A DNA stretch of 64,000 nt, taken from NCBI GenBank assembly GCA_009789175.1, contig CP046866.1:124001-188000 (forward strand), read 5' to 3'. Origin of the DNA: Salinibaculum litoreum (GTDB lineage: Archaea > Halobacteriota > Halobacteria > Halobacteriales > Haloarculaceae). A program made the position numbers and the translations under genes. The notes under the pieces were generated by a model. It made no database searches, was not told the DNA's origin, and was given only the letters and a program-made list of their open reading frames with translations. Of this stretch, positions 21,987-29,971 are shown one piece after another (within the stretch, counting starts at the first letter, position 1; every line of letters starts with the position of its first letter).

Positions 21987-23213
21987 ATGACACAATCCCT
22001 GGCGAATTCGGCGTCATCTCCGACCCGGCGCAACTTCCTGAAACTCGTTGGGACAGCGGCCGCAGGGTCTGTCATCACAGAATACGAGACAGAGATTGCA
22101 GCGGCACTTCAGCGTGCGACAGACGGACCGAAGGAAGTCGTCTGGATACAGGGCCAGACCTGCTCTGCCTGTACTATGTCGACACTTCAGGGTGCCTCAC
22201 CGAGTCTGGAGGAGGCGATTCACGAGTTCCAGCTCGATGTGACGTACCATCCCGAGTTGATGGCGGAGTCGGGCGATGCGGCTATCGAGGCGATGAGCAA
22301 GTCCCCCGATGTCCTCATCGTCGAGGGGGCGATTCCGACCAAGATTCCCTCCGCTGCGACGTTCGGGCGGACCGAAGACGGCCGCCCCAAGCCGGTGTAT
22401 GACTGGGTACAGGAACTGGCCCCAGAGTCCGAGTTCGTGATGGCCGTCGGCACCTGTGCGTCCTACGGTGGCTGGCAGTCGGCACAGAACGGTGCCCCCG
22501 CGGTCATGGACGACCCCGAGGAGGGTCCCTGGCTCGACGACAACGTCACCGGGGCACGCGGGCTCCAGTACACCCACAAGGACGACAGCGGCGGCGCGCT
22601 CGGCCCCGACTTCACCTCGAAGGCGGGGCTGCCGGTCATCAACGTCCCCGGCTGTATGACCCATCCCGACTACGTGCTGTTGACCGTCGCGACGCTGCTC
22701 AACGACGAGGAGCCCGACCTCGACGAGTTCAACCGCCCGAAAGCGTTCTACGGGCCGCTGGTCCACGACCAGTGTTCCCGCCGTGGCTACTTCGACCGCG
22801 GTGAGTTCGTCGACCACGTCGGCGACGGCTCCGGGAAGTGCCTGTACAACGTCGGCTGCAAGGGGCCGTACTGTCACTGTGACGACTCCGTGCGGCTGTG
22901 GAACGACGGAACGAGCGTCTGTCGCAACGTCGGCGCGCCCTGTATCGGCTGTATGGAACCGGGCTTCTGGGACGAGATGACTCCCTTCTACCAGCCTATC
23001 GAACAGCAGGGTCTCGGTCCACTCGACTGGGAGACCATCGGGAAACTCATCGTCGGCGGGACCGTCGCCGGCATCGGTGCCCACGCCGCCCGCAAGGCGA
23101 TGGGCTATGGCAACGGCGACGAACTCGACGAGCAGGCCGTCGAGGATGCCGAGGCACGGGCCGACGGTGGCTGTGGCTGTGGTACGGGCTGTGACTGCAC
23201 GAGTGAGGACTGA
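21987..23213 (+). CDS. uptake [NiFe] hydrogenase, small subunit (Tat-exported)
   Basis: A 408-residue electron-transfer subunit. TRRNFLKLV (residues 13-21) is a Tat signal that would carry the folded heterodimer out of the cell. Proximal cluster ligands: C59 and C62 (QTCSAC), with GTCASYGG and GCMTHPDY. Distal: H260, C263, C285, C291. Medial: C298, C312, C319, C322; C312 aligns with the proline that gives a [3Fe-4S] cluster in most relatives, so a [4Fe-4S] is inferred. The two extra proximal cysteines of oxygen-tolerant enzymes are absent. A C-terminal helix (about 352-374) anchors it. An unusual tail carries Cys at 396, 398, 402 and 404. The gene opens an eleven-gene operon. Confidence 0.95.
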   Translation: MTQSLANSASSPTRRNFLKLVGTAAAGSVITEYETEIAAALQRATDGPKEVVWIQGQTCSACTMSTLQGASPSLEEAIHEFQLDVTYHPELMAESGDAAIEAMSKSPDVLIVEGAIPTKIPSAATFGRTEDGRPKPVYDWVQELAPESEFVMAVGTCASYGGWQSAQNGAPAVMDDPEEGPWLDDNVTGARGLQYTHKDDSGGALGPDFTSKAGLPVINVPGCMTHPDYVLLTVATLLNDEEPDLDEFNRPKAFYGPLVHDQCSRRGYFDRGEFVDHVGDGSGKCLYNVGCKGPYCHCDDSVRLWNDGTSVCRNVGAPCIGCMEPGFWDEMTPFYQPIEQQGLGPLDWETIGKLIVGGTVAGIGAHAARKAMGYGNGDELDEQAVEDAEARADGGCGCGTGCDCTSED

Positions 23214-23216
23214 ACG

Positions 23217-24782
23217 ATGCCAGAGATAGAAATCGACCCCACGACACGTATCGAGGGCCACCACAGTACGACGCTGCACGTCGACGACGGCGTCGTCACG
23301 GAGGCAAAGAGCCACATGGACATGTTCCGCGGGATGGAACTGGTCGTGTTGAACCGACCACCGTCCGACGCCCCGGTGTTCACCCAGCGGGTCTGTGGCG
23401 TCTGCTTTACCGTCCATCGGTACACCTCGCTGCGGGCAATCGAGAACGCCGCTCGCAAGGCGGGCGTCTTCGACGACATCCCGCCGACGGCAAAGCGGAT
23501 GCGCAATCTGATGGAGGCGATGTTCACGCTGTGGAACCACGCCGTCCACACTTTCGCCCTCGTCGGGCCGGACTACTCCTCGGCCGTGATGGGCGAGGAC
23601 GGCGTCGAGCGACTCGACCCGCTTGAGGGGGACGGCTACCTGACTGCACTGGAGATGCAACGCCAGTTGCTCCAGGGCTTCGCGGAGTTTGGCGGGAAGG
23701 CCCCGCACCCGCTGACGTACTCTCCGGGCGGGATGGCCGCGACGCCGACGGCGGAGAAAATCCAGAGCATCCGCGACCAACTCGAAACCGTAAGCGAGTG
23801 GCTCGGGCCGACCGACGCCGTCCCCGAAGTCGTCGAGAACGTCAACAACGGACAAGTCGAGTCCGACTTCGCACAGGGGCTACACGACATCGTGGCGTTG
23901 CTCGTGACGGCCAAGGAAGTCGGTGCCGACGACTTCGGCGTCGGGCCGGGTCGATACTACTCGAACGGCAAGTACTACGACATGGACGGCGGGAAGGAAC
24001 TGGAACCCGGCGTCTATCTCGACGGCAAGCGCCAGCCAAAGAGCAAAGACGAGATTACCTCGGCCATCACCGAGGATGTCTCGCGGGCGTGGTACACCGA
24101 CGACTCCGGCGGCCAGCCCATGGAGGAGACGCCGCCCAAACCCGACCCCGAGAAGGAAGGCGCCTACTCCTGGGGGAAAGCACCCCGCTTCAACGGCAAG
24201 AACATGGAGTGTGGGCCGCTCGCACGCCTCGTGCTGGCCGACAGCGACCCCTTCGACTTGCGGGCGACGCTGGGCGACGACCCGGCGAAATCCAGCACGC
24301 TCAACCGGCTCATCGCCCGCGCACAGGAGTCGCTCTGGCTCCGTGACAAGGCGATGGAGTGGCTGGACGAAATCGAGGCCGGCGGCACCGTCGGCCAGGA
24401 GTGGACCGACGACTTCACCGCCGAGGGTGTCGGCCTCTCGGAGGCTTCCCGTGGCGCAATCTCGCACTGGGTCCGTGTCGAGGACGGCACCATCACCAAC
24501 TACCAGATTATCACGCCGACACTGTGGAATCTCGGACCCCGTGACGACGAGGGGACGCCGAGCATCTTCGAAGGTGCCGTCGAAGGCATGAATGTGCAGG
24601 ATGTCGAGAACCCCATCAACGTCCTGCGGACCGTGCGCTCGTTTGACCCGTGTCTCGCCTGTTCGGTCCACGTCGAGAGTCCCGACGCCAGTTACACCGA
24701 GGAGATAACGCCCGCCTCGCCCGGCACTGCCGTGGGCGGGGGCGAGACGCCCTACGCAGGCCAGCGGACTGACCAACAATGA
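23217..24782 (+). CDS. uptake [NiFe] hydrogenase, large catalytic subunit
   Basis: The 521-residue subunit that holds the Ni-Fe site and splits H2. Nickel ligands are C60 and C63 in RVCGVCFTVH and C479 and C482 in DPCLACSVH. It has the family N-terminus DPTTRIEGHH and no signal peptide, so it is exported together with the small subunit. The maturation protease would cut after His485, removing a 36-residue tail (V486 to Q521), longer than the roughly 15 residues common in group 1 enzymes. It follows the small subunit by 3 bases and overlaps cytochrome b by ATGA. The fourth ligand is Cys, not selenocysteine. Confidence 0.96.
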   Translation: MPEIEIDPTTRIEGHHSTTLHVDDGVVTEAKSHMDMFRGMELVVLNRPPSDAPVFTQRVCGVCFTVHRYTSLRAIENAARKAGVFDDIPPTAKRMRNLMEAMFTLWNHAVHTFALVGPDYSSAVMGEDGVERLDPLEGDGYLTALEMQRQLLQGFAEFGGKAPHPLTYSPGGMAATPTAEKIQSIRDQLETVSEWLGPTDAVPEVVENVNNGQVESDFAQGLHDIVALLVTAKEVGADDFGVGPGRYYSNGKYYDMDGGKELEPGVYLDGKRQPKSKDEITSAITEDVSRAWYTDDSGGQPMEETPPKPDPEKEGAYSWGKAPRFNGKNMECGPLARLVLADSDPFDLRATLGDDPAKSSTLNRLIARAQESLWLRDKAMEWLDEIEAGGTVGQEWTDDFTAEGVGLSEASRGAISHWVRVEDGTITNYQIITPTLWNLGPRDDEGTPSIFEGAVEGMNVQDVENPINVLRTVRSFDPCLACSVHVESPDASYTEEITPASPGTAVGGGETPYAGQRTDQQ

Positions 24783-25642
24783 GCACACCCGAATCCTCGG
24801 CCGGGTCCGGCGGCGGTCCCGACAGCGACAGCGAGTCGACCGGGTCGATCAAGGAGCGTGCGGTGGCGCTGGGACAGGAGATGCTCCGTCCCCCGGAGGA
24901 AGCCGACGACCGATACCGTCGCATTCAGGCGCTGAAAGGCCGCGTCACGGTCGAGCGCCACAGCCTCGGGGCACGTATCGCTCACTGGCTGCAGGCCTTC
25001 TGTATGCTCCTGTTGATGTGGACGGGGTATGCCATTTGGACGGGGAACTACTGGATTCTCGATGTCGCGACCTGGGACGGCTACGCCACCGCCCTGGAAC
25101 TGCACGTCTGGGGTGGCGTCGTCTTGATGCTGTATCTCTTCGTGGTCTTCCCGCTGTATCACGTCTACGTCGACGGCCACCGACAGCTCGCGGAACTGGC
25201 GGACATCCGCGAGGCGTTTCACATCGGGCAGGCCTTCGCCGGACTCAAATCCTACATCCCCGGCTACCACGACGCCCGCCAGACCTACGACGAGGAGGAG
25301 GGCGACTGGGTTGCCTACCACCCGATGCAGAAGACGTTCTTCTGGTGGATTTCCATCTTCTTTGGCGTGCTCGTACTCACCGGCTTTGGCATGTATGCGG
25401 AGATGCGGAGTGACCCGGCCTGGTGGGTCGAACTGCTCGGCTTCCTCGATGGCTATCTCGGGTTCGTCCTGCTCCAACAGATTCACCTGCTGACCTTCTT
25501 CATCGCCGTCGCGATGGTCATCGGCCACGTCTATTTCGCTCTCCTGCCGGGGAACCGAAACGCGCTGAAGTCGATGGTCTTTGGCGACATGGAGGCGTAC
25601 GTACTCGGCGACGGGGAGGACAACGAGCATGACGACGACTGA
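24779..25642 (+). CDS. hydrogenase b-type cytochrome subunit
   Basis: A 287-residue di-heme cytochrome b of the cytochrome b561/Ni-Fe hydrogenase b-type family, which passes electrons from the small subunit to quinone. After a 60-residue acidic cytoplasmic N-terminus come four main membrane segments. Likely heme ligands are His in RHSLGARIAHWLQAF, ELHVWGG, LLQQIHLLTFF and VIGHVYFALL. The loop between segments 2 and 3 (about 135-180) is long. It overlaps the large subunit (4 bases) and the protease gene (14 bases). Its presence makes the enzyme respiratory rather than soluble or ferredoxin-linked. Confidence 0.93.
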   Translation: MSTPESSAGSGGGPDSDSESTGSIKERAVALGQEMLRPPEEADDRYRRIQALKGRVTVERHSLGARIAHWLQAFCMLLLMWTGYAIWTGNYWILDVATWDGYATALELHVWGGVVLMLYLFVVFPLYHVYVDGHRQLAELADIREAFHIGQAFAGLKSYIPGYHDARQTYDEEEGDWVAYHPMQKTFFWWISIFFGVLVLTGFGMYAEMRSDPAWWVELLGFLDGYLGFVLLQQIHLLTFFIAVAMVIGHVYFALLPGNRNALKSMVFGDMEAYVLGDGEDNEHDDD

Positions 25643-26117
25643 CCAGGTGACACCGGAGGGAACGGCCCGGACGCAGGCCGTCGTCGGTGTCGGGAGCATG
25701 GTCATGCGCGACGACGGCGTCGGCTACCACGCCGTCGACCGTTTGCAGGAGCGTGACCTCCCCGAGGGAGCGACCGCAACGCATGCCAGTACAACGGCGT
25801 TTCTTGCCTTGGAGGCGATGAGCGGGACCGACCGCGCTATCGTCGTCGACGCGCTGGACCTCGATGCGTCGCCGGGGACGATTCGGGAGTTCAGACTCGA
25901 CCAACCCGACCAGCATCCGGAGGTGACGATGCACGATTTCAGCTTCAGCGACGCACTCGCGGCCGGTTCCGGCGCGTACGATATTCCCGAGGAGATACTG
26001 CTGGTCGGGGTCGTCCCCGGGACGGTCGAGCCGGGTGTCGAACTGTCAGAGCCGGTCGAGGCCGCACTGCCGGAGCTTCTCGACCGCATCGAACGCAGAC
26101 TGCGGACAGAACAATGA
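25629..26117 (+). CDS. hydrogenase maturation protease
   Basis: A 162-residue cytoplasmic endopeptidase of the HyaD/HycI family that cuts the large subunit tail once nickel is in place. The N-terminal VVGVGSMVMRDDGVGYHAV carries the conserved GxGN-like turn and the first metal-binding Asp; VVDALDLDASPGTI holds the second; MHDFSF gives the His in the usual place. The normal Asn of GNxL is Ser here (GSMV). The ATG at 25629 lies inside the cytochrome b gene end, and the frame before it is a shadow. It overlaps the following microprotein by ATGA. Confidence 0.92.
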   Translation: MTTTDQVTPEGTARTQAVVGVGSMVMRDDGVGYHAVDRLQERDLPEGATATHASTTAFLALEAMSGTDRAIVVDALDLDASPGTIREFRLDQPDQHPEVTMHDFSFSDALAAGSGAYDIPEEILLVGVVPGTVEPGVELSEPVEAALPELLDRIERRLRTEQ

Positions 26118-26290
26118 ACGGAAAATGGTACTGTACGGACTGTGGCGAACAGATTGCGAAAGAAGACATCGACGACCACGAGGCAGAGGGTCACCACGTC
26201 AAGGGCCACTTCCAGCCCGACCGGCTCCTGCCCGGTGACCCGGAGATGATCGGCTCCGGCGTCGATACGGTCGATGGGGGTGAGCACTGA
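26114..26290 (+). CDS. 58-residue zinc-finger-like microprotein in the hydrogenase operon
   Basis: A short gene of unknown function, below common length cut-offs. It is framed by two overlaps: its ATG overlaps the protease stop (ATGA at 26114-26117) and its TGA shares its last base with the hypC ATG at 26290. The 58 residues begin MNGKWYCTDCGEQI: C7-x2-C10, then H22 and H27/H28, fit a C2H2 zinc site, with a further H32. The rest is polar, acidic and without membrane segments. Position between protease and hypC suggests a part in maturation, nickel delivery or regulation; all of this is inference. A zinc-ribbon DNA-binding protein is the alternative. Confidence 0.8.
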   Translation: MNGKWYCTDCGEQIAKEDIDDHEAEGHHVKGHFQPDRLLPGDPEMIGSGVDTVDGGEH

Positions 26291-26625
26291 TGTGTCTCGG
26301 TGTCCCCGGTGAAATCACGGAAATCGACGGCAGCGAGGCGATTGCGGACTTCTGGGGCGTCGAGCGCCGCGTCAGAATCGATGTCGTCGGCGACTCCGTC
26401 GAGGTCGGTGACTACATCCTCAACCACGCGGGCTTTGCGATTCGGAAGATACCCGAGCGCGAAGTCGAGGAGACGATGGCAATCTACGAGTCACTGTTTG
26501 GCGACGACCCCGACGAGGCACTTGACGAAATCGGTGCTGACGACGACGCCGACATCGACATCGGACGGGGCCGACCGCAGACGACAGCCCCCGGTGGAGA
26601 CGCAGGTGAACAGGATGACGACTGA
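26290..26625 (+). CDS. hypC: hydrogenase maturation chaperone HypC
   Basis: HypC binds HypD and carries the Fe(CN)2CO unit to the large subunit precursor. It begins MCLGVPGEI with the essential Cys2, exposed after Met removal, and keeps the small beta-barrel pattern (VGDYILNHAGFAIRKI). At 111 residues it is longer than the usual 75-90 because of an acidic tail. It starts on the last base of the microprotein stop and overlaps hypD by 11 bases. Confidence 0.95.
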   Translation: MCLGVPGEITEIDGSEAIADFWGVERRVRIDVVGDSVEVGDYILNHAGFAIRKIPEREVEETMAIYESLFGDDPDEALDEIGADDDADIDIGRGRPQTTAPGGDAGEQDDD

Positions 26626-27724
26626 CGCCGGCGACCTGAAGTTCCGGGACCCCGAGACCGCCCAGGAGATTGCCGCGGACATCGAGGCCCAGATGGAGCG
26701 CATCGGCGAGTCGATCGAGATCATGCACGTCTGTGGCAGTCACGAGCAGGTCATCGCCAAGTTCGGCCTGCGGTCGATGCTGCCCGACGACCTCTCGGTG
26801 ACGATGGGACCGGGCTGTCCGGTCTGTGTGACGAACATGCCCGAAGTCGACGAGGCCGTCGCGCTGGCCGAGGCCGGCAAGACCGTCGTCACCTACGGCG
26901 ACATGTTCAAAGTACCCGGCAGCGCGCGCAGTCTCGCCGACGCGAAGGCCGACGGAGCAAGCGTCGAGGTCATCTACAGCGCCAGCGAGGCCGTCGAACT
27001 CGCCGAGGACAACCCCGAGGAAGATGTCGTCTTCTTCGCGACGGGCTTCGAGACGACCGCCGCGCCGACCGCGGCCGTCCTGCAGGCCGACCCGCCGGAG
27101 AACTTCTACGTCCTCTCGGCACACAAGTACGTCCCGCCCGCGATGGAGGTCGTCGCGGAGATGCCCGACACCGATGTCGACGCCTTTCTCGCGGCCGGCC
27201 ACGCCGCGACCATCACGGGCTATGGCCTCTTCGAGGACTTTGTCGAGGAGTATGACCTCCCCGTCGTCGTCGGCGGGTTCGAACCGCTGGATGTCCTCTA
27301 CGGCGTCCGTCGCATCCTTGCGTTTATCGAGGCCGGCGAGGGGGGACTCGACAACGCCTACCCCCGGTGTGTCTCTCGTGAGGGCAACACTGCAGCGATG
27401 GGGGCAATCGAGGACGTCTTCACCCGCACCTCCGGGGAGTGGCGGGGTATCGCGGACATCCCCGACGCCAACTTCGAGTTGAACGAGACCTACGCCGACC
27501 ACAGCGCCCGCAAGCAGTTCGATATCGAGGGCGTCGAGGGTGACGCCGACCCGCTCACCGAGGAGTGCATCTGCGGGGATATCATGGCCGGGACGGCCTC
27601 GCCGGAGGGGTGTGCCCTCTTCGGCGAGGAGTGTACGCCACAGAACCCGGTCGGTGCCTGCATGGTCTCGGACGAGGGGACCTGCAAAATCTGGCACGAG
27701 TACGGGGGCAAACCGGACCTATGA
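26615..27724 (+). CDS. hypD: hydrogenase maturation protein HypD
   Basis: HypD (369 residues) is the iron-sulfur scaffold on which the Fe(CN)2CO group is made, with HypC and HypE. It has MHVCGSHE, GPGCPVCVT and the thiol-redox region near GFETTAAPT. The C-terminal cluster cysteines lie in CICGDIMAG, EGCALFGEEC and GACMVSDEGTC. The ATG at 26615 within the end of hypC gives the standard length; the longer frame is a shadow of hypC. It overlaps hypE by ATGA. Confidence 0.95.
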   Translation: MTTDAGDLKFRDPETAQEIAADIEAQMERIGESIEIMHVCGSHEQVIAKFGLRSMLPDDLSVTMGPGCPVCVTNMPEVDEAVALAEAGKTVVTYGDMFKVPGSARSLADAKADGASVEVIYSASEAVELAEDNPEEDVVFFATGFETTAAPTAAVLQADPPENFYVLSAHKYVPPAMEVVAEMPDTDVDAFLAAGHAATITGYGLFEDFVEEYDLPVVVGGFEPLDVLYGVRRILAFIEAGEGGLDNAYPRCVSREGNTAAMGAIEDVFTRTSGEWRGIADIPDANFELNETYADHSARKQFDIEGVEGDADPLTEECICGDIMAGTASPEGCALFGEECTPQNPVGACMVSDEGTCKIWHEYGGKPDL

Positions 27725-28772: not shown

Positions 28773-29159
28773 ATGCACGAACTCAGCGTCGCCGAGGCGA
28801 TTCTCGACCGCGCACGCGAGGCTGCCGCCGACCACGGCGCGGACAGCGTCGAGACGCTGACGGTCGAACTCGGTGAGGCGACTCACATCAACGCCGACCA
28901 GTTGCGGTTTTGCATCGAGACGGTCGCCGAGGAGACGCCGCTGTCGGCGGTCGAGGTGGCCATCGAGCGCGTCCCGGCGCGGGCCGCGTGTGACTGTGGC
29001 TGGTCGGGCGAGCCGCCGACCTTCGACGGCACGGCGGCCGTCGTCCCCTCGACTCGCTGTCCGGAGTGTGGCTCCGGCACGGAGTTCACGCAGGGCAGGG
29101 AGTGCCGGCTGGCAAGCATCGACGTTCCCGCAGACACACAGACACCGACAGAACGATGA
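28773..29159 (+). CDS. hypA: hydrogenase nickel chaperone HypA
   Basis: HypA (128 residues) binds nickel and passes it to the large subunit with HypB. The ATG at 28773 gives MHELSV, placing the Ni-binding His at position 2; a TTG two codons upstream would spoil this. The zinc site is CDCGWSG and CPECGSG. It overlaps hypB by ATGA (29156-29159). Confidence 0.95.
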   Translation: MHELSVAEAILDRAREAAADHGADSVETLTVELGEATHINADQLRFCIETVAEETPLSAVEVAIERVPARAACDCGWSGEPPTFDGTAAVVPSTRCPECGSGTEFTQGRECRLASIDVPADTQTPTER

Positions 29160-29971
29160 CTCACCACGTATCGACACCGCTGACGCATCGCTCGCCAATC
29201 GACCGCTTGCTCGCCGTGCTATCCAGCGACGACACGGCTCCGGTCGCTCGCGCCCACCGCTTTGGCCACGGCGACGACGAGGATGACCACGGCGACGCCG
29301 ACGACGTGCTGGCCCGCTTCCGCGAGCAGGCGCGGGACCTCCACGAGCGGGTCGTCCACGACCACGATATCTTCGCCGTCGAGTTCCTTGGCGCGACCGG
29401 CAGCGGGAAGACGACACTCGTCGAGCGTCTCATCGAACGGACGCCCGACGACGAGCGGGTCGGTGTCGTCGTCGGTGACGTGGCTGGCGATGACGATGCG
29501 AGCCGCTTTCGTGACCACGGCGTCGCCGTCGCAAACGTCACCACCGGCAAGGAGTGTCACCTCGATCCGGCGATGCTGGGCGAGGCAATCGGCGAGTTCG
29601 ACCTCGCCGCACTCGACCGCCTCTACGTCGAGAACGTCGGGAACATGGTCTGTCCGGCCGACTTCCCGCTCGGGGCACAGGCCCGCGTCCTCGTCGTGAG
29701 TACGACCGAGGGCGACGACGTGGTGCGCAAACACCCGCTGCTGTTCGAAGCCTGTGACGCCGCCGTCATCAACAAGGTCGATGTCGCCGAAGCCGTCGGG
29801 GCCGACGTGTCACGGATGCGCACCGATGTCGCAGAACTCGCCCCCGACATGGCGGTCTTCGAGACGAACGCCCGCGGCGGCCAGGGGGTCGACGACCTCG
29901 CGGCGTTTCTCGCCGACGTTCGGACGGGGGGCCACCACGGCCACGCGGCTCACGAACACGCACACGACTGA
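29156..29971 (+). CDS. hypB: hydrogenase nickel-insertion GTPase HypB
   Basis: HypB (271 residues) is the SIMIBI-class GTPase for nickel insertion. Walker A GATGSGKTTL, the switch region VGDVAGDDDASRF, metal-site NVTTGKECHLD, ENVGNMVCPADF and the base-binding NKVD are all present. The N-terminal Cys-rich nickel motif of many HypB proteins is missing. Instead there is a His/Asp stretch (HGDDEDDHGDADD, about residues 38-50) and a C-terminal tail with His clusters (GGHHGHAAHEHAHD), likely for nickel binding or storage. It overlaps hypA, and hypF follows after 2 bases. Confidence 0.95.
   Translation: MTHHVSTPLTHRSPIDRLLAVLSSDDTAPVARAHRFGHGDDEDDHGDADDVLARFREQARDLHERVVHDHDIFAVEFLGATGSGKTTLVERLIERTPDDERVGVVVGDVAGDDDASRFRDHGVAVANVTTGKECHLDPAMLGEAIGEFDLAALDRLYVENVGNMVCPADFPLGAQARVLVVSTTEGDDVVRKHPLLFEACDAAVINKVDVAEAVGADVSRMRTDVAELAPDMAVFETNARGGQGVDDLAAFLADVRTGGHHGHAAHEHAHD

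Follow-up and report, generated by a model that had tools for sequence, protein, structure and literature searches.

A putative C2H2-like zinc-finger partner of the HybD/HycI-type maturation protease in haloarchaeal group 1 [NiFe]-hydrogenase operons

The machinery that matures [NiFe]-hydrogenases is regarded as largely catalogued: it comprises six Hyp proteins, HypX under aerobic conditions and a dedicated protease for each enzyme. The group 1 enzymes are the membrane-bound uptake hydrogenases. To our knowledge, bacterial proteases of the HybD/HycI family (PF01750, TIGR00072; HydD) work without a finger of the kind considered here, and the solved members of this family, with about 140–165 residues, contain no counterpart of such a finger subunit or domain. 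In Salmonella, stable complexes between a maturation protease and the large subunit (LSU) that it processes were shown, for which the C-terminal extension is not needed, and roles beyond cleavage were suggested (PMC5299533). The protease does not cut when the LSU holds a metal other than nickel (PMC12134894). For haloarchaea, the operon type hydABC-hydD-hypA-F was classed as group 1, and the available parts of these sources mention no small protein (PMC6176080, PMC5437934). Our literature survey, which covered subscription journals little, found no description of a zinc-finger partner of a hydrogenase maturation protease. Haloarchaea also encode zinc-finger microproteins (e.g., Brz, HVO_2753 and HVO_0758), which like the protein described below are small and carry a single Cys/His finger-like domain (PMC2253796, PMC11241148, PMC10716476).

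The window analyzed here, a stretch of 64,000 nucleotides of Salinibaculum litoreum (contig CP046866.1, positions 124,001 to 188,000), contains a complete hydrogenase operon on its forward strand. The small subunit (SSU, with a Tat signal region, 21987–23213), the LSU (23217–24782, with a C-terminal extension after DPCLACSVH), the cytochrome b subunit (cytb, 24779–25642), the protease (25629–26117), the microprotein (26114–26290), hypC (26290–26625) and hypD (26615–27724) are followed by hypE, hypA, hypB and hypF. Family-model searches identified SSU, LSU, cytb and hypD, and assigned the protease to PF01750 (1.7e-15) and TIGR00072 (1.6e-34) and HypC to PF01455 (1.9e-23). Note that the HypB frame (29066–29971) is rich in His and Asp over a stretch close to its N-terminus and rich in His at its C-terminus (GGHHGHAAHEHAHD), a feature of HypB proteins that store nickel.

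The preliminary description of this DNA had drawn attention to a 58-codon frame between the protease and hypC genes, and its coordinates and residues proved exact: the translation of 58 aa (MNGKWYCTDCGEQIAKEDIDDHEAEGHHVKGHFQPDRLLPGDPEMIGSGVDTVDGGEH) has C7, C10, H22, H27, H28 and H32. Both junctions are present as described, i.e., an ATGA start/stop overlap with the protease gene (26114–26117) and a TGATG stop/start overlap with hypC (26288–26292), in which one base is common and the hypC ATG begins at 26290. Within the microprotein, the C7-x2-C10 knuckle lies at 26132–26143, the second ligand pair H22-x4-H27 at 26177–26194 and a conserved tail (residues 34–44) at 26213–26245, the tail having the consensus R-P-[DE]-R-L-L-x2-D-P-[WE] with Q34 and E44 in the window copy. 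The frame is not missed by gene callers, as the homologue of Natrarchaeobaculum sulfurireducens AArc1 is already annotated as ‘hypothetical protein’ (WP_117362505.1). In this organism, the hydrogenase operon including the microprotein gene is located on the plasmid pAArc1-02 (L097).

The finger gene was identified in 26 of the 391 genomes of the class, i.e., the window's own and 25 homologues with 42–76% identity, and the window copy and most homologues are shorter than 70 residues. In all 26 genomes it lies directly downstream of the protease gene, and hypC comes next in 22 of the 26 loci. The start of the finger gene overlaps the protease stop by 4 bases in 16 of the 20 unfused loci, and of the 22 loci that adjoin hypC, all but one (21) share the one-base overlap with this gene. 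The preliminary description had proposed a search for the same frame and its Cys/His residues in related operons, and this search returned an invariant core C-x2-C-x11-H-x4-H (26/26) within a wider set of invariant residues (W5, C7, C10, I14, H22, E23, H27, V29, P35, R37, L38, L39 and P43), so that the gene withstood the refutation set there, i.e., a lack of conservation in related operons. The Cys/His list given at that time stands for C7, C10, H22 and H27 but not for H28 (kept in 14/26) and H32 (5/26), so that only the former four are candidate ligands. Pairwise pN/pS of the finger gene ranges from 0 to 0.23 over the first 45 codons, which indicates purifying selection. Although the window holds many short frames of similar length, a spurious reading frame in GC-rich DNA is therefore hardly credible and was refuted by the invariant residues shared over 26 genomes together with the low pN/pS; the frame 26114–26290 is a real gene.

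Concerning its class, the ligand pattern of C2H2 fingers, C-x2-5-C-x(about 12)-H-x3-5-H, occurs in all 26 homologues. AlphaFold predictions made with an input of 15 sequences place strands at residues 2–7 and 12–14, a helix at 16–24 and a further strand at 29–34, with a mean pLDDT of 81–90 over residues 1–30, and thus predict a beta-beta-alpha finger fold in which a beta hairpin precedes the helix bearing the first His; the tail of the protein has low confidence in these models, yet is strongly conserved. No Pfam or NCBIfam model reached its cut-off in a search with the microprotein, in agreement with the earlier statement that no standard hydrogenase maturation protein matches it. Short fingers often escape curated zinc-finger models, and here the Pfam UBZ model matches 13 of the 26 members with a best value of 5.9e-4, below its cut-off. 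A fold search with the finger gave only weak matches, none of them significant (Foldseek E >= 0.43, Z <= 3.0), mostly to protein-binding zinc modules (ZZ, B-box and UBR-box), and a search of the sequences of solved structures with the family profile gave nothing meaningful, its top E-value of 0.0025 relying on short CxxC stretches. The likeness to UBZ, ZZ, B-box and UBR-box fingers, which are mostly eukaryotic families, is thus weak and no homology is claimed.

The comparison with described haloarchaeal and hydrogenase-linked proteins separates the finger from each of them. Tarasov et al. defined the CPxCG-related microproteins by one CPxCG-like pattern together with another Cys/His pair whose members enclose 2–3 residues, the two elements being 7–40 residues apart (PMC2253796), whereas the conserved pair here is H-x4-H and most homologues have E, S, A, Q or D after CxxC (the window copy has CTDCG). 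In contrast to these microproteins, the finger is tied to the maturation of one enzyme, and some species carry it as part of the protease chain. Nor is the finger a HypC. HypA is likewise a small protein with a zinc-binding domain encoded in hydrogenase operons, but combines an N-terminal nickel site with a CxxC-CxxC zinc site, whereas the microprotein has one CxxC and no PF01155 match; a replacement of HypA was rejected, since a separate hypA is found in all 26 finger genomes. Finally, the microprotein itself does not have the HycI/HybD fold with its nickel cleft (Asp/Glu, Asp, His), unlike the neighboring protease and the N-terminal portions of the naturally fused proteins described below, which are members of that family.

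Indeed, protease and finger form one open frame in six genomes (L012, L014, L019, L022, L023 and L025), two of these fused loci recurring as the records L083 (Natronomonas) and L082 (Halorientalis regularis). In the model of the natural Halorientalis fusion, the finger displays a pLDDT of 96–97 and the whole chain a pTM of 0.70, which says little on domain contact, while the protease part matches E. coli HybD (Z 17.7–17.9) with matches that end at residue 163 of 216. The six fusions form one clade on the protease tree (support 98/96), pointing to a single origin of the fusion, and the long branches between members suggest that the fusion has persisted while its carriers diverged widely. The start codon is kept at the fusion junction in all six cases, and it is preceded by a Shine-Dalgarno-like run of at least five bases in four of them (L012, L014, L022 and L023), whereas such a run precedes 15% of the ATGs that these loci contain. 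Judging from these motifs, a fused gene may yield two products, including a free finger.

HypC–HypD, HypC–LSU and protease–LSU are known contacts, and in partial Mantel distance tests over 16–26 operons they were recovered as positive controls (0.58, 0.40 and 0.37, respectively). In the same tests, finger distances correlated with those of the protease after removal of LSU, SSU, HypC and HypD distances (partial r 0.43–0.57, p 0.001–0.003), a result that held when the fused clade was left out and when ranks were used, whereas values near zero or negative were obtained against HypC, HypD, HypE, HypF, cytb and mostly LSU. Some tests gave a weak finger–SSU signal (r 0.17–0.24, p 0.02–0.05), and the use of cytb as control gave a weak finger–LSU signal (r 0.20, p 0.04). 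Since these tests are limited by short sequences and shared descent, we count them as supporting. Combined with the fusions and with a cassette free of hyp genes, seen in four genomes of one genus (L008–L011) as SSU-LSU-cytb-protease-finger without an adjoining hypC and with the hyp genes elsewhere, they point to the protease rather than HypC as the partner of the finger, a partnership that is well supported by inference.

The preliminary description had left open a nickel or zinc chaperone, an adaptor for HypC or for the protease, or a regulator. Of these, the protease adaptor is favored by the fusions, the gene linkage and the correlated evolution; nothing specific speaks for a chaperone or a regulator. 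The frequent one-base overlap with hypC, which would couple translation, suggests that the finger might serve HypC or the HypCD complex as an adaptor when the Fe(CN)2CO group is passed to the LSU, but this role appears quite improbable given the four hypC-free cassettes, finger distances uncorrelated with those of HypC (partial r about 0.00 and p about 0.5 under the main controls) and fusions that, in the loci seen, all involve the protease and never HypC. Slightly more room might be given to a nickel-handling protein that delivers nickel to the LSU, or checks nickel in it, beside the protease, as the finger has four invariant Cys/His, the protease refuses an LSU with a metal other than nickel (PMC12134894) and zinc is not bound by some of the small C(P)XCG proteins of haloarchaea (PMC11241148). 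Nevertheless, such a role is unlikely: HypA, which all 26 finger genomes have, is not replaced by the finger, and neither of the additional histidines, H28 and H32, shows conservation. In addition, C2H2 beta-beta-alpha sites usually hold structural zinc.

Brz, a haloarchaeal zinc-finger microprotein, regulates its neighbor bop (PMC2253796), and such proteins are numerous in haloarchaea; a small transcription regulator of the hydrogenase operon was thus considered, and it is given the same low probability as the HypC adaptor. Indeed, the finger gene lies inside the operon behind the protease and is found as a domain of the latter in six genomes, the finger evolves with the protease, the finger region has a net charge of −3 to −8 in the rows checked, and the H-x4-H spacing does not fit the published CPxCG-related motif. 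Still less probable, to the point of being very doubtful, is a role in redox or iron-sulfur transfer from a position like that of the HoxR rubredoxin: the finger is a small CxxC protein in a hydrogenase operon, but where rubredoxin and HoxR bind iron with two CxxC pairs, it has only two conserved Cys without a second CxxC, its ligand set is C2H2 and no rubredoxin model matches.

Among the 391 genomes, HypD is found in 42, which include all 26 finger genomes. A NiFe large subunit is present in all 42, although of several kinds, and the group 1 large subunit (about 510–540 residues) occurs in every finger genome. Genomes with only a 660–720-residue large subunit have neither the finger nor a convincing HypA, and a general Hyp factor for every NiFe hydrogenase was therefore rejected. 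As an example, this subunit accompanies HypD, with no convincing HypA match and no finger, in G118, G220, G240, G264, G281, G290 and G298 (e.g., L066, L067 and L068). Finger absence was also found in G089 and G319, which have group 1 subunits and the protease and correspond to a single loss on the protease tree, and in G129, which has a divergent group 1 operon; the finger is thus no strict requirement. The C-terminal extension of the LSU gave no clear rule dividing genomes with and without the finger.

Beyond the class, a phylum-wide profile search over 295 genomes gave no relative above noise among the best 21 candidates per genome, the one marginal match outside the order has an internal stop, and a contig scan with one peptide pattern from the finger tail matched in haloarchaea only. 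Genus g6 has a standalone 45-residue relative (MATWYCKDCSEYIDERMASWHESQGHAVLGYRAPESMEDRHLWSS) and g12 has weaker ones, in both cases distant from hydrogenase genes and with similarity restricted to the finger half (L092, 4216–4386; L093, 4475–4708; also in the genomes of L036–L044). These WYCKDC proteins of g6 were rejected as the missing copy of G089 and G319, as they have no adjoining hydrogenase genes and match only the finger half. Note that in genus g8 (L063, L064 and L065), a second group 1 SSU/LSU pair stands without adjoining protease, cytochrome and finger, the full cassette being located elsewhere in the genome; this second pair is probably matured in trans.

Altogether, the reading that we favor, and consider reasonably probable, is that the finger serves the HybD/HycI-type maturation protease of group 1 [NiFe]-hydrogenases in haloarchaea as a zinc-finger-like accessory subunit, or as its C-terminal domain, and would help it dock on, or license, the LSU precursor. 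According to its ligand pattern, the C2H2 core would bind zinc with a structural role, while the RPDRLLxxDP(W) tail, conserved though not predicted to fold alone, would probably be a linear motif docking on the protease or on the protease–LSU complex. From what the protease does, the finger may help it recognize or hold the cofactor-loaded LSU precursor, whose C-terminal extension would be cut only after nickel insertion, in line with stable protease–LSU complexes (PMC5299533) and nickel-dependent licensing (PMC12134894). In the fusion branch, protease and finger would be synthesised as a single polypeptide, and the retained internal start might provide some free finger in addition. Against this reading, the fusion arose only once, G089, G319 and G129 do without the finger, and bacterial proteases of the family are not known to need one. 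A stronger formulation, namely a lineage-specific maturation factor in which a detachable zinc-finger subunit times the protease cut of the LSU and adds a control layer absent from the known Hyp set, is possible but somewhat short of an even chance.

What we rate as new here is the apparent occurrence of a protease of the HybD type that has a finger as subunit or domain, the finger seemingly being covered by no curated family. Recognition of the nickel-loaded precursor by the protease is still a matter of debate. A conserved finger, fused to this protease in nature, offers a small testable handle on this question. A protease-helper role, if true, would explain one of the numerous haloarchaeal zinc-finger microproteins that lack a characterised function, and the finger gene should be kept when a haloarchaeal hydrogenase is expressed in another host. 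The finger is probably an unrecognised helper of the final hydrogenase assembly step in hydrogen-burning haloarchaea.
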